Shown: positions 12,836-23,685 of the stretch, piece after piece
Position numbering within the stretch: the stretch's first letter is position 1
Layout of the letters: every line of letters starts with the position of its first letter
Origin: a virus
Virus record (IMG/VR): IMGVR_UViG_3300028086_000007
Span: 1-23,685 of that record
DNA: 23,685 nucleotides
Strand: one strand, 5' to 3'
Program-made: the position numbers and the translations under genes
The notes under the pieces: model-generated
Databases searched by the model: none
Told to the model about the DNA's origin: nothing
The model's input: the letters and a program-made list of their open reading frames with translations, nothing else

Positions 12836-13161
12836 TAGCCGACATACCAAGCAGTGCCATTGCTCCAGACAGGAACCTGATTAGAGCCGCCACCAGCTGC
12901 TGCAGTGCCAAAGGTGGAGACGGTGCAGTCAGTGATGAACGCACGCGCACCAGCATTGCCGACAGGATTGGGAAGCTGACCAAAGGTGGTCGGAGTTGTC
13001 TGAACGCTATTGCAGACCACGCCATCGAAGTTTTCTTCGATGAACTGGATGAAGGTCGTGATCGAAGCGCGGCGCGAGTCACCTTGGTTGGGAACCCAGA
13101 GAACCAGATTGTCACCGCCTGAAAGCTGCGTGATCAGCGGCAGATAGTTGATAGTCGGCAT
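12835..13161 (-). CDS. Small virion protein with fibre-knob-like C-terminus
   Basis: A 108-aa protein. Residues about 1-45 (INYLPLITQLSGGDNLVLWV, then GDSRRASITTFIQFIEENF) form a segment often found at the base of phage fibres. The C-terminal part, about 62-108 (NAGARAFITDCTVSTFGTAA, then GGGSNQVPVWSNGTAWYVG), is a motif seen at the ends of many phage structural proteins and is probably a trimeric knob. It starts with ATG 13161, with GGAG eight bases upstream. It is placed between the gp4-like and gp10-like genes, where P22 has no gene. The likely role is a small decoration or fibre, inferred from pattern. Confidence 0.7.
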   Translation of the reverse strand: MPTINYLPLITQLSGGDNLVLWVPNQGDSRRASITTFIQFIEENFDGVVCNSVQTTPTTFGQLPNPVGNAGARAFITDCTVSTFGTAAAGGGSNQVPVWSNGTAWYVG

Positions 13162-13164
13162 TGC

Positions 13165-13644
13165 TTAACTCCATTCAATAGGACCATCAGGCCCAGCATC
13201 AACAGGATCAACGGGAGGCTGGGCATAGGGATTGTCCCAGCGCCAAGGCTTATTGCCCTGGCCGATCGGCATCGTGTCAGGCAGCTGCTTCTCAAGCGGG
13301 AAGGTGGCACGCTGCATCAGAACGTTGAGAGCGTTCTTTGCGATCACCTTGGTGTCTGGAGAGACAGTCTTGCCGTATCCTGGAGCGATTCTGATGGCGA
13401 GATTGGTGATCACCGCTTCCCATGCGCTGTCAGGCGTAAAGGTCTCGGTGTCCAAATCCGCATCCTGCGGGCTGCTGGCGATGGGATAGCCCAGGCGAAT
13501 GCCAGAGGCGTTCCATTCCATCATCATGGCATCCAAGCGCCGCAGAGCCGATTCCAGCTGCTCAGGCTGGAGGTCGAACACATAATCAGCCAGCCCGATT
13601 TCCTCGAAGGCTGCAGTCACAAACTGGCGCTTGGTGTATCCCAC
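13165..13644 (-). CDS. P22 gp4-like head-tail adaptor (tail accessory factor)
   Basis: 159 aa, close to the 166 aa of P22 gp4. Shared features are an N-terminal helix FVTAAFEEIGLADYVFDLQP, then LESALRRLDAMMMEWNASGI, GYPIASSPQDADLDTETFTP, AVITNLAIRIAPGYGKTVSP, and a late PDTMPIGQGNKPW line matching the P22 RMPTGSGN line. In P22 this protein binds the filled portal first, as a ring of subunits, and starts tail assembly. The start codon is GTG at 13644. GGAGG lies seven bases upstream, overlapping the previous gene's end, which decides the start. No ATG gives a better start. Confidence 0.87.
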   Translation of the reverse strand: MGYTKRQFVTAAFEEIGLADYVFDLQPEQLESALRRLDAMMMEWNASGIRLGYPIASSPQDADLDTETFTPDSAWEAVITNLAIRIAPGYGKTVSPDTKVIAKNALNVLMQRATFPLEKQLPDTMPIGQGNKPWRWDNPYAQPPVDPVDAGPDGPIEWS

Positions 13645-19856: not shown

Positions 19857-20235
19857 CAATCACCTCGCGCTTGATGCGATTGACCAAGTTGCCGCTGATG
19901 TTCAGCTTCGCAGGCTCGTTGTATCCGTGCATCGCGTTTAGCTCTTTGACTGCTGATACCTTCACTGCTCCGGAGCCTTCACGATAAGCTTGCACAAGTG
20001 CTTTGACAGACATTTCACGAGACCACAGTTGCTTCTCAGCTACCTGTGCTTTCAATTCAGCAACCCTTGCCGCAACCTTTCCGTCACTCATAAGCACAGA
20101 TGCTTTGGAATAGATGGTGCTATCCTTCATGCCTTCAGCGTCATAGGCGGTGCGATAAGCGTCTGCCTGTCCCAGTCCGTCAGCGATGCCTTGGGCGAAT
20201 GCTTCCTGCTTTGCGGTTAGCTTAACATCAGCCAT
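19834..20235 (-). CDS. terS: Terminase small subunit
   Basis: A 133-aa DNA-recognition subunit. The N-terminus LTAKQEAFAQGIADGLGQAD, then AYRTAYDAEGMKDSTIYSKA, is the standard terminase small subunit (Terminase_2) opening with a helix-turn-helix at about 5-50. Residues about 52-95 (VAARVAELKAQVAEKQLWSR) are the central helical oligomerisation part. The C-terminus is acidic and would contact TerL. It overlaps the methyltransferase gene by 8 bases and terL by 23, with GGAGAG about eight bases before its ATG. By analogy with P22 gp3 it would bind a pac site, often located in or near this gene. No such site is identifiable here. Confidence 0.9.
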   Translation of the reverse strand: MADVKLTAKQEAFAQGIADGLGQADAYRTAYDAEGMKDSTIYSKASVLMSDGKVAARVAELKAQVAEKQLWSREMSVKALVQAYREGSGAVKVSAVKELNAMHGYNEPAKLNISGNLVNRIKREVIDGTDADD

Positions 20236-21397
20236 TGAAGGTCTCTCCCGTCTCTGCGTGAGTAGCTTCCTTGCCAGTGAAGTCCTGCCAACGCTTGATG
20301 ATTACGTCACAGTATTTCGGTTCAAGCTCCATGACTCGCGCACTGCGATGGTTCTTCTCACAAGAGATAAGGGTCGAGCCAGAGCCACCGAAAGCGTCAT
20401 AGACGATCTTCTTATTCGGCTGATCCACCATTGCCATGTCGATAAGCTCAACAGGCTTCATCGTTGGATGCACTGTGTTCTTCTGCCGCTTCATCTCCCA
20501 GATGTCACCTCGAAGGGTTTTGCTCCCACCGAAGTCTCCGTAATAAAAGATAATCTCGTGTTGCTTGAAATACTTGTCGAGGTGCTGCGCTGGGTTAACC
20601 TTGTTCCAGACTATCATCGCTTTAGGTGCGCGAGCTATATCTGTCATCGCCTGCTTAAAGATGCTCGCATACTGCCACGAGCAACACACATACATCGTCT
20701 CGCAACCCATTAGAGATTGCCGCAGGAAGTCTAGGAAGTCTGCGTCCGACATCTTGTCGTTCTTGATCTTGTCTCGCTTGTCGCTAACGCCCTGGTAGTC
20801 GATATTGTACGGCGGATCAGTAAACACCATATCAGCCTTCGCACCATTCATAAGCTTATCAACAGCATCGATGCTTGTGCTATCACCACACATCAATCTG
20901 TGATTGCCTAGCACCCAGACGTCACCTGGGACTGTCTTTGGTATCTCAGGCACTTCAGGAACAGCGTCTTCGTCGGTCAGCCCGTCCGTTGGTTCTGGCT
21001 CCAGCAATCCATCAAGGAATTTTTCGTCAAAGCCCAGCAAGTTAATATCGAAGTTCTCTAAGTTGAGGTCTTCGATCTCCGCCTTCAGCATATCCATGTC
21101 CCACCCTGCGTTTAGGGCAAGCTGGTTGTCTGCTATCACTAGGGCGCGTTGCTGTGCCTTTGTTAGGTGGTCGAGAATAATTGCTGGCACTTCTTCAAGG
21201 CCGAGCTTTCTTGCTGCCAGTAGGCGTCCATGCCCTGCAATGATCGTGTTATCGCCATCGATAAGGATTGGATTGGTCCAGCCAAACTCTTTGATGCTGG
21301 CTGCGATCTGCGCCACCTGCGCATCGGAGTGCGTGCGGCTATTGGCTGCGTAGGGAATTAGATCTGCGACTAGGCGCGTTTCAATCTTCGGTGTCAT
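20228..21397 (-). CDS. ParB-N domain fused to a DNA methyltransferase
   Basis: A 389-aa fusion. Residues about 8-100 form a ParB/Srx N-terminal domain (LIPYAANSRTHSDAQVAQIA; GHGRLLAARKLGLEEVPAII). Residues about 155-375 form an N6-adenine/N4-cytosine methyltransferase. The catalytic TDPPYNIDY motif (194-197 DPPY) comes before HPTMKPVEL (310-318) and the SAM-binding DAFGGSGST (334-342). That order is the beta class, as in CcrM or HinfI methylases. The recognition site is unknown. Expected roles are protecting phage DNA from host restriction or epigenetic control. No restriction enzyme is next to it, so it is probably an orphan. It lies directly upstream of terS, overlapping it by 8 bases. Confidence 0.9.
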   Translation of the reverse strand: MTPKIETRLVADLIPYAANSRTHSDAQVAQIAASIKEFGWTNPILIDGDNTIIAGHGRLLAARKLGLEEVPAIILDHLTKAQQRALVIADNQLALNAGWDMDMLKAEIEDLNLENFDINLLGFDEKFLDGLLEPEPTDGLTDEDAVPEVPEIPKTVPGDVWVLGNHRLMCGDSTSIDAVDKLMNGAKADMVFTDPPYNIDYQGVSDKRDKIKNDKMSDADFLDFLRQSLMGCETMYVCCSWQYASIFKQAMTDIARAPKAMIVWNKVNPAQHLDKYFKQHEIIFYYGDFGGSKTLRGDIWEMKRQKNTVHPTMKPVELIDMAMVDQPNKKIVYDAFGGSGSTLISCEKNHRSARVMELEPKYCDVIIKRWQDFTGKEATHAETGETFNG

Positions 21398-21398
21398 C

Positions 21399-21794
21399 TC
21401 AGTTTCCGTTCTCGGTCTGGTGAGGTTGATTTACATGACCAGCCGCATTTTGTCCACGCTCCAACCGATCGACCACCAGCTGGGTATATCCGACGATATC
21501 GATCCATGAGTCGGCATAGGTTGGATTGCCATTCAAGATCCGTCCGATCTTGAGCGCCACCATTTCCAAACTCTCTTTCATATCGGCTGGAAGCTTCTGC
21601 CAATTTGGGCTGTGCCGCATCGCCGCTTTGATGTTTTGCGAGATCAACGCCTGGCTTCCAAAATCGCCATAGCTGGAACCTCGTTCTTCGAGAATGAAAT
21701 TGATATCCTTCACTGGTATCTCCCCAATAGCTTTTGCCCATGACCCTGGCTCTGATTGATCATCGATCGTGACCGTCTGGTTCCTAAAATTCAT
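21399..21794 (-). CDS. DUF6378-like phage protein
   Basis: A 131-aa protein with NFILEERGSSYGDFGSQALI (about 32-51) and ESLEMVALKIGRILNGNP, then YADSWIDIVGYTQLVVDRLE (about 75-113). I recall this pattern as the DUF6378 family of phage proteins, whose function I do not know. Helices with regularly spaced acidic residues recall all-alpha NTP pyrophosphatases such as MazG, but the motif is not exact. The start is ATG 21794, with AGGAGGT five bases upstream. The longer frame from ATG 21818 would begin inside the TGACCCT array and lacks a ribosome site. It is the first gene after the array and is spaced 1 base from the methyltransferase gene. Confidence 0.75.
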   Translation of the reverse strand: MNFRNQTVTIDDQSEPGSWAKAIGEIPVKDINFILEERGSSYGDFGSQALISQNIKAAMRHSPNWQKLPADMKESLEMVALKIGRILNGNPTYADSWIDIVGYTQLVVDRLERGQNAAGHVNQPHQTENGN

Positions 21795-21823
21795 CCCGAC
21801 CTCCTCTGACCCCTGCATGGCGA

Positions 21824-21938
21824 TGACCCTATGACCCTGGCCCTATAGGGCCAGAGGGTCAGGGAGGGTCAAAATTCGCCCTGTTTTGCCCCTTTTTGAC
21901 CCTGACCCTGATTTTGACCCTAGGGTCATTTAGGGTCA
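21824..21938. repeat. Array of nine TGACCCT heptamers in both orientations
   Basis: TGACCCT occurs on the plus strand at 21824, 21832, 21897, 21903 and 21915. Its reverse complement AGGGTCA occurs at 21855, 21865, 21922 and 21932. Several starts are about 8-10 bases apart, near one helical turn. Two perfect 14-bp palindromes are included: GGCCCTATAGGGCC at 21839-21852 and TGACCCTAGGGTCA at 21915-21928. A near copy, TGACCCC, lies at 21807. The array fills the only gap of about 130 bases in the window and reaches a few codons into the primase 3' end. It looks like protein-binding iterons: a replication origin, operator or partition-like site. Confidence 0.8.
21842..21872 (-). promoter_or_regulatory. 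Possible promoter inside the heptamer array
   Basis: On the minus strand, TTGACC (21872-21867) resembles a -35 box. TATAGG (21847-21842) is a weak -10, with a 19-base spacer, or 18 if CTATAG is used. It points toward the DUF6378-like, methyltransferase and terminase genes and lies about 48 bases before ATG 21794. Both boxes coincide with heptamer copies, so a protein bound to the array could control it. The match is modest. Confidence 0.3.
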
Positions 21939-23685
21939 CCGTTTTTGCGCAGCAGCATTGCGCTAGAATTGACCTCATCGATCATGATCCAGCCATGCTC
22001 AAACGCCTCGATGATCTCGCCCTGAATAAGCGCGCCGATCAGTTTGTCAGAGTAGGATGGGTTGACCATATTGCGCACTGTGCGCTCGGCATTGCCATCG
22101 GCTGTCAGCATATCCTTGAGCGCTGAGCGTGAGACATAGGGACTGCCTTCGCGTGTTTCGGCTCCTCCGGCCCACCAGGCGCGTTCCCAAGTCTTTCGGT
22201 GTCCATCTAGCTTGGACTCCTTCTGAGGCGCTACGGGAGCCTCCTCGATCGCGAGGACGGCACTGCAGACCTGTTCGCCATCCTCATCCATCCAGCCCTT
22301 GATTGGCACGATGTTGAGGTTGGCATAGATCGGCTGGGCTTCTTCGGCATCTTTCGACTTGCGCTGGACGATCTGCATGGGCTGATCGCCTTTTGCTGGC
22401 ACGATGCTGATTTCAATTTCGAGCGCGCCTTTCCATGCTGATGAGCCACGCGCACGATGCTGGGCTTCTTCTGAGACACCAGTATGGTGGACCAACAAGA
22501 CGCTGCACTCAAACTCACGCATCAACCCAGCGCAGGCATCGATCATAGTCTTGGCATCCTGGGCGCTGTTTTCATCGCCAAGCAGGAAGCGGTGCAGCGT
22601 GTCGATTACGATCAGGCTGGGCTGTTTTGGCAGTGACCTGACGGCATCGAGGACGCGCTGATAGCCTTCTGGCGTATTGAGATCGCACCCAGCCTTGGAG
22701 AGCCACATATTGAGGTTCTTGGCCCCATGATGCTGCTTCCATGCAGCAACGCGGCTGCGCAGGCCGTGGTGGCCCTCACCGGCCAGATAAACGACCGTGC
22801 CAGCTTTGACCTTGTGACCGTTCCAGTCTGGCATAGCTGCGGCCATGTGCAGAGACCAGTCAAGGACAGCGAAGGTCTTGCCACCACCTGATGGACCGTG
22901 GACCATGATCAGGGCTTGTTCTTGGAGCCAGTGCTTCACCAGCCATTTGATGGGCGCTGGTTTGGTGCAGAAGTCGTCGGCCGGGACCAACCAGTCTGAT
23001 GCTGGCGGCTGGAGCAGGATCTTGAGATCGTGTCCGGCTTGGACATAATCATTTGCGTCACCATCGATCGGCGGCATGACAACGCGTGCGCCATATTTGG
23101 CCGAGGCTTGATCGGCATATTTCTGGCCTGTGCCTGATGCGTCATTGTCGGCCACAATGACCAACTCCTGCATTTGTCCGTATTTCTCGCGGATCGATCC
23201 GGTTACGGGAACCAGATTGGACGCGGAATAGGCAACGATGCAAGGCCGATGCGTGATCTCGTGGATCGTGGCGGCAGTGGCGAAACCTTCGGCAATGTAG
23301 ATTGTTCCAGGCTCATCGGTTGTGCCGACCATCCAGAAGCAGCCGCCAGTCTGACCGCCTGCGTGGTAAAGTTTGCCACCTTCCTGATCGATATACTGGA
23401 TCGATGCCAGCTTTCCTTCTGGCGTAAAGAGCGGAGCCATCAAGCGGCCATCGCTGGTGATGCGAGTTCCGTGCGCTCCAACGCCCTTGCGCGCCAGATA
23501 TGGGTGATCTGGACTGGCTCCCATGCCGTTTGACCAGATGATCTCGGCAGTATCGGCCACTGCTTCGCGCTGGCGTTTTAGTTCATCGTCGCGGATCTTG
23601 ATGGCTTCGGAAAGCCTGCGCGCATGAATGATCTGCTCTGCATCAGTCAGCTGGCGACCAACATCCGCGCGCCATGTGACTTCGA
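21926..23685 (-). CDS. TOPRIM primase / RecA-like helicase, 5' end missing
   Basis: The frame is open to the right edge without an ATG. The GTG at 23560 is probably internal, since 41 further codons (EVTWRADVGRQLTDAEQIIH and on) read as normal protein. Counted from that GTG, residues about 85-175 form a TOPRIM domain with IYIAEGFATA (Glu91) and VIVADNDASG (Asp138, Asp140) for primer synthesis. From about 205 comes a RepA/DnaB-like ATPase with Walker A HGPSGGGKTF (221-230), Walker B LIVIDTLHR (316-324), VLLVHHTG (354-361) and RARGSSAWKG (369-378). A winged-helix-like tail follows from about 450. It would prime and unwind phage DNA, as T7 gp4 does. The N-terminal zinc-binding part is expected outside the window. 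Confidence 0.88.
   Translation of the reverse strand, partial: EVTWRADVGRQLTDAEQIIHARRLSEAIKIRDDELKRQREAVADTAEIIWSNGMGASPDHPYLARKGVGAHGTRITSDGRLMAPLFTPEGKLASIQYIDQEGGKLYHAGGQTGGCFWMVGTTDEPGTIYIAEGFATAATIHEITHRPCIVAYSASNLVPVTGSIREKYGQMQELVIVADNDASGTGQKYADQASAKYGARVVMPPIDGDANDYVQAGHDLKILLQPPASDWLVPADDFCTKPAPIKWLVKHWLQEQALIMVHGPSGGGKTFAVLDWSLHMAAAMPDWNGHKVKAGTVVYLAGEGHHGLRSRVAAWKQHHGAKNLNMWLSKAGCDLNTPEGYQRVLDAVRSLPKQPSLIVIDTLHRFLLGDENSAQDAKTMIDACAGLMREFECSVLLVHHTGVSEEAQHRARGSSAWKGALEIEISIVPAKGDQPMQIVQRKSKDAEEAQPIYANLNIVPIKGWMDEDGEQVCSAVLAIEEAPVAPQKESKLDGHRKTWERAWWAGGAETREGSPYVSRSALKDMLTADGNAERTVRNMVNPSYSDKLIGALIQGEIIEAFEHGWIMIDEVNSSAMLLRKNGDPK

Follow-up and report, generated by a model that had tools for sequence, protein, structure and literature searches.

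A putative iteron origin beside a phage primase-helicase, with a repeated word that tracks the protein's winged-helix domain

In bacteriophage P4, a single protein, alpha, unites a TOPRIM-type primase, a helicase and a C-terminal winged helix that binds the origin repeats (PMC4234260). The Sulfolobus plasmid pRN1, which has no iterons, carries its origin just 3′ of the ORF904 gene, with a stem-loop whose structure is conserved and whose sequence is not; a small repressor gene lies upstream, and ORF904 has a C-terminal winged helix (PMC4234260). In the PLE satellites of Vibrio cholerae, the initiator's DNA-binding domain is swapped along with the origin, leaving the rest in place, and this diversification has been ascribed to a nuclease directed at the origin (PMC8263062). 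The PLE initiator, RepA, is of the RepA_N type, works with iterons of about 30 bp and contains no primase or helicase (PMC7145576). Geminiviruses have short iterons of conserved layout and diverse sequence that are matched to the cognate Rep (PMC12548392).

We analyzed a 23,685-nt stretch of viral DNA (IMG/VR record IMGVR_UViG_3300028086_000007), hereafter the window, whose main genes lie on the minus strand, so that an array of short repeats falls downstream (3′) of a primase-helicase gene (Table 1). Like P4 alpha with ori1/crr, this locus combines a single-protein domain plan with putative origin repeats. P4, however, is a satellite with an SF3 helicase, whereas the present carriers are tailed phages, their helicase is RSF1010-RepA-like (AAA_25) and falls outside SF3, and their repeated words form at least 21 classes. 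The fold of the C-terminal winged helix is predicted with high confidence, and this domain would bind the origin. The layout of pRN1 is similar in its origin 3′ of the replication gene, structured element, small upstream regulator and C-terminal winged helix, and it thereby provides a precedent that supports reading the array as an origin; ORF904 nonetheless consists of an archaeo-eukaryotic prim-pol and an SF3 helicase, neither of which is found here.

In RSF1010, the same three jobs are done by three proteins (RepA helicase, RepB primase and RepC iteron binder) instead of one fused protein, and the helicases are homologous, with RSF1010 RepA matched by the primase-helicase family profile among solved structures (E 1.5e-7). 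RSF1010 iterons are longer than the present words. The joint change of initiator domain and origin in the PLE satellites resembles that of winged helix and word in our phages, though initiator type and iteron length differ, and geminivirus Rep is a rolling-circle protein of plant ssDNA viruses, unrelated to the present one. By analogy, the best reading is that this system would work like P4 alpha and its origin, or like pRN1 ORF904, with a different protein architecture. We found no description of the origin of this phage family in the open-licence literature, which is weak evidence of novelty.

Table 1. Features in and around the repeat array (positions in the 23,685-nt window)
Feature	Position	Strand	Basis or remark
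Putative iteron array, nine exact heptamers and near copy TGACCCC (21807-21813)	21807..21938	.	Heptamer counts
Perfect palindrome TGACCCTAGGGTCA, two fused heptamers	21915..21928	.	Sequence
Hairpin CTGGCCC-TATA-GGGCCAG	21837..21854	.	Between inverted heptamer pairs 21824/21832 and 21855/21865
Core element GGGGCAAAA between array halves	21884..21892	-	Kept when heptamer changes
Primase-helicase: TOPRIM, RSF1010-RepA-like helicase, C-terminal winged helix	21926..23683	-	5′ end cut by contig edge
Predicted winged-helix DNA-binding domain, residues 450-539 of 544	21944..22213	-	AlphaFold2
Putative specificity stretch codons, residues 490-504 (NAERTVRNMVNPSYS; predicted helix 492-499)	22049..22093	-	Per-column test, hold-out prediction
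DUF6378 protein, next gene downstream	21399..21794	-	Likely start 21794, behind AGAGGAGG
ParB-N methyltransferase, ParB_N domain	20228..21397

A preliminary description of this DNA had reported nine exact heptamers (five TGACCCT and four AGGGTCA) with one near copy, a perfect palindrome, two 10-base spacings and a density far above chance, and our counts bear out each of these. The exact copies begin at 21824, 21832, 21897, 21903 and 21915 on the plus strand and at 21855, 21865, 21922 and 21932 on the minus strand, spanning 21824–21938, with the 10-base spacings at 21855/21865 and 21922/21932. Including one further copy, the window holds ten exact heptamers against a shuffle mean of 1.95 (sd 1.49, maximum 8), and none of 100 shuffles of the window reached ten. 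The heptamer's frequency outside the array had been proposed as a check; within the window, nine of the ten copies lie in the array and one outside it, at 21741 in the next gene. A de novo hexamer search also ranks the array as the top cluster of the window. The description of the site as a non-coding gap needs correction: the array ends before the ribosome-binding site of the DUF6378 gene, but it starts inside the last codons of the primase-helicase gene and is not purely intergenic, because the heptamers at 21932–21938 and 21922–21928 encode the last codons and stop of that protein (G-D-P-K-stop). The window has no AT-rich stretch of note, and across the family AT-richness is only slightly raised (median percentile 99.4, compared with 93.7 by chance).

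Because the contig breaks off within the primase-helicase gene (window 23560–23685), the record lacks the N-terminus and the early genes; the open reading frame at 21926–23560 encodes 544 residues. Its TOPRIM-type primase domain matches Toprim_3 (E 1.4e-12) and its helicase domain matches AAA_25 (E 4.9e-36). AlphaFold2 predicts the winged-helix domain with a pLDDT of about 92–97 per block, and winged-helix folds are among the structural matches, all of which are weak and generic (best Z 6.9; Foldseek E ≥ 0.1). P4 alpha is absent from the structural match lists, an absence that is no evidence against kinship, and the winged-helix profile gave no credible match to the sequences of solved structures (E 0.22). 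In the AlphaFold2 prediction, residues 492–499 form the second helix of a helix-turn-helix and would thus be a candidate recognition helix.

Beyond the DUF6378 and ParB-N methyltransferase genes follow terminase subunits, a P22-like portal and a P22-like coat protein. The gene downstream of the array varies among relatives that share one word, and the DUF6378 gene is not part of the mechanism. The DUF6378 protein (window 21399–21818) matches PHROG phrog_474, labelled phosphofructokinase, probably only via a shared small domain. Annotated relatives have a small Cro-like regulator ahead of the primase gene, facing a Sak4/exonuclease/helicase operon of opposite orientation; we saw the Cro-like gene upstream of the primase gene in L056–L061 and in about 96 loci.

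Searching IMG/VR and named phages for relatives, we obtained 53 loci with the window protein, 80 of at least 516 in a profile scan and many more in later scans, about 170 of them distinct. An array lies directly downstream of the primase-helicase gene in nearly all of these ∼170 relatives, including 94 of the 103 newly scanned, and is the densest hexamer cluster in most contigs by de novo search. In three loci (L024, L045 and L048) it is found one gene further down instead of adjoining the primase-helicase gene, and a few others (e.g. L350, L366, L367, L373 and L381) have no clear array. A DNA-level search in annotated phages returned one weak relative only. In L060 (MW202475, ct76p945; primase C-terminus and 13003–13500), the winged helix is short and degenerate and there is no array, possibly reflecting loss of the origin module. 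Named members include Salicola phage CGphi29, Idiomarinaceae phage 1N2-2 and Alteromonas phages XX1924 and PB15, and the circular genome ct3Oc712 also belongs to the family. CGphi29 (L056) is the source of the published TIGR-TasH system (PMC12045711), which appears unrelated to the present array. TIGR arrays alternate edge and loop repeats, with spacers of about 9 nt, and go with a Nop-domain Tas protein (PMC12045711); we rejected this identity because the present array repeats a single word in both orientations and its spacers are not regular.

The repeated word itself varies by phage, with the copies within one array changing in concert and in both orientations. Single-linkage grouping of 169 loci gives at least 21 classes of word, a number that the method makes a lower bound. 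Besides TGACCCT, the words include GGTAAC, GGGAAC, GGGCGTT, AACCCT, GCCCCC, TGCCCC, TCACCTA, GGTACA, GGTACC, GGTTCA, GGGACA, CGGACC and CGTACC, among others, the short GTAC-type words being weakly defined by the hexamer method. The order of elements is conserved: a left repeat block, then GGGGCAAAA or a close form (present in 57 of the 75 dereplicated loci), two repeats, a hairpin and two inverted repeats. In the window and in relatives, the GGGGCAAAA core stays constant while the word around it changes. Conservation of the gap in syntenic relatives, raised in the preliminary description as a way to judge the array, is thus seen for the architecture and not for the words.

The position of the hairpin and its loop, often TTTA or TATA, recur in many relatives, in which stem sequences differ from that of the window and vary among themselves yet remain complementary through compensating changes. 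The longest hairpin arm has a median of 7, compared with 5 in shuffled sequence, and arms of at least 8 are found in 48% of loci versus 1.3% of shuffled sequences. These compensating changes and the recurrent loop, together with the strong single-strand fold of the array region in the window (z −6.4), could be expected if the repeats acted in RNA or ssDNA as a large transcript-end hairpin (a terminator, attenuator or packaging signal) whose identity is kept by pairing. Pairing alone, however, would explain neither the retention of direct copies nor the tracking of the word with residues of the predicted DNA-binding helix described below; in addition, no T run follows the hairpin in the window sequence and the array region matches no Rfam family. 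We consider such a role very improbable, and rejected both an intrinsic terminator, for lack of the T run, and a known RNA family. If the hairpin instead had a structural part to play within an origin, as in pRN1, this would be compatible with the origin reading favoured below.

Among known features of origins, we found exact DnaA boxes (TTATCCACA) 51 times in array regions, in 24 of the 75 loci, which are not independent because related contigs share boxes. Their density is 1.55 per kb in array regions compared with 0.037 elsewhere in the same contigs, a 42-fold difference, and shuffled 9-mers gave at most 2 hits. The boxes accompany several word classes (GGGTCA, GCCCCC, GGTAAC, GGGAAC, TCACCTA and GGGACA), and the window has none, even allowing two mismatches. 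At the spot that a DnaA box takes in some loci, many others carry a (C)GATGC(GG)-like element immediately past the final repeat, for example at 21809–21825 in the window and after the hairpin in L007, L011, L025, L039 and L123. Cumulative GC skew, proposed earlier as a check, was computed and proved uninformative, with its minimum near a divergent gene boundary 2–2.6 kb away in most relatives checked and a signal not separable from gene direction. As in iteron origins, short identical repeats are clustered at a single place in the genome, adjoining the putative initiator gene; as in pRN1, the array is a structured non-coding element 3′ of a replication gene. The earlier suggestion of an iteron origin gains support from the architecture kept by ∼170 relatives, the 42-fold enrichment of DnaA boxes and the covariation with the replication protein.

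These repeats could instead be an operator through which the winged helix of the primase-helicase represses or times its own gene or the late genes, with replication starting elsewhere. An operator would be expected to produce the same protein–DNA covariation, and the window array does lie between replication and late genes. Against it stand the clustering of DnaA boxes at arrays, the hairpin and GGGGCAAAA core, which are atypical of operators, the variable downstream genes of phages with the same array, and the three loci in which the array is one gene further down; we regard an operator as unlikely. The late-gene switch entertained in the preliminary description is also contradicted by terminase and portal proteins that are 88–95% identical between phages with different words. 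We rejected a late-gene operator or packaging site, as the neighbouring genes either vary or are conserved whatever the word.

Which protein, then, does the word follow? Across the 75 dereplicated loci, and with TOPRIM and helicase identity controlled for, the similarity of words correlates with sequence identity in the winged helix (partial r 0.40, permutation p 0.001) and in the specificity stretch (partial r 0.47, p 0.001), while TOPRIM and helicase given the winged helix have partial r of −0.05 and −0.06. Pairs less than 72% identical in the helicase and at least 80% identical in the stretch share the word in 45 of 45 distant cases, and close pairs with a stretch identity of at least 80% do so in 96%. 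Conversely, the word is shared in only 1.5% of 948 close pairs (helicase ≥ 72%) with a stretch identity below 60%, and in 1–1.5% of the roughly 2,360 pairs below 60% overall. The word thus follows neither phylogeny nor neighbouring genes, but residues ∼490–504 of the winged-helix domain. Natural swaps illustrate this: L069 and L098 are 99% identical in both TOPRIM and helicase and 35% in the winged helix, and their words differ; L025 and L029 are 95–96% identical in TOPRIM and helicase and 45% in the winged helix; and the window shares its TOPRIM domain with L045, with helicase, winged helix and word all different. On trees, we count at least 32 word changes along the helicase (72 loci) and 21 along the winged helix, for 17 classes. 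In L045, L047 and L051, a TOPRIM domain nearly equal to that of the window protein (21926–23560) is fused with a different helicase of the RepA type and a different winged helix, which at the level of sequence reads as domain exchange inside one gene.

Since the array adjoins the winged-helix codons, lying within about 300 bp of them, one recombination could move both, and recombination clearly does move gene end and array together (L020 versus L025, L069 versus L098). The two might therefore co-travel by linkage only, with another protein binding the array. We assessed this column by column, holding the rest of the winged-helix domain constant. The signal peaks at residues 488–506 (mean log2 odds ratio 2.82), with the highest values at N500 (7.4), M498 (7.1), N497 (6.3) and T494 (5.4); the C-tail, which is nearer to the array in DNA, has −0.37 and the helicase 0.19, which argues against simple linkage. 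Moreover, near-identical domains that are one to three stretch residues apart have different words: AKQY to AKVY (Q497V) accompanies GGTAAC to GGGAAC (L131 versus L132), KPGYP to KPGSA accompanies CGGACC to CGTACC (L128 versus L197), and VRNM to VKNM accompanies GGGTCA to GGGTTA, all of these being natural correlations. Finally, the adjacent Cro-like regulator, present in 60 of the dereplicated loci, has no predictive value for the word (rho 0.06, partial −0.01), and we rejected it as the array binder. Linkage alone is, on this evidence, a decidedly improbable explanation.

The preliminary description had considered the binding protein not visible in the window and had named the ParB-N domain of the methyltransferase as a possibility. 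That gene is close by and does encode a ParB_N domain, but the complete genome of Alteromonas phage PB15 has the array and no homologue, and methyltransferase similarity ignores the word (68% to L007, with a different word; 62% to L003, with the same word). This binder can be given almost no credence, and a ParB/parS system was rejected, as the repeats do not follow the ParB-domain protein. Judging from sequence comparison, the best candidate is in plain view: the C-terminal winged helix of the primase-helicase.

We also predicted words for 103 winged-helix sequences outside the first set, from the nearest neighbour at residues 490–504. At a stretch identity of at least 0.9, 22 of 22 words were right (chance 5%), these hits being not all independent, with about half in the GCCCCC class. 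Between 0.8 and 0.9, 44% were right, and the switch from GYP to GSA accounts for all five misses. Below 0.65, prediction was about at chance level, as expected for unseen specificities.

Together, the conserved array architecture, a word that covaries with residues ∼490–504 and with none of the neighbours tested, the DnaA boxes enriched around arrays across the family and the predicted winged-helix fold make it highly probable that the array is an iteron replication origin read by the winged-helix domain of the adjoining primase-helicase. In this mechanism, the C-terminal winged helix would physically bind the heptamer, and several primase-helicase molecules would gather on the heptamers that flank the hairpin in both orientations. 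The ring of the RepA-like helicase would then be loaded and open the DNA, and the TOPRIM domain would prime synthesis, presumably at the hairpin. In many relatives, host DnaA bound at the flanking boxes may assist. The copy in the window would be active as an origin in the same way.

With less assurance, we lean towards the view that this widespread family of TOPRIM, RepA-like helicase and winged-helix proteins rewrites its own origin as a self/non-self label of the replicon. Changes of one to three residues in a single predicted helix, or swaps of the whole domain, would then be matched by concerted replacement of ∼10 iteron copies, and the set would amount to a natural winged-helix recognition code, so that the protein sequence of an unseen phage would reveal its origin word. 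The family offers more than 20 natural combinations of a DNA word with a recognition stretch, some of them differing by one to three residues, so that a change of protein–DNA specificity becomes directly testable. The findings also raise the question of whether superinfecting relatives, satellites or origin-targeting nucleases (PLE/Odn) drive such frequent origin change. For the phages of this large and for the most part uncultured group, they would place both the origin and its initiator.
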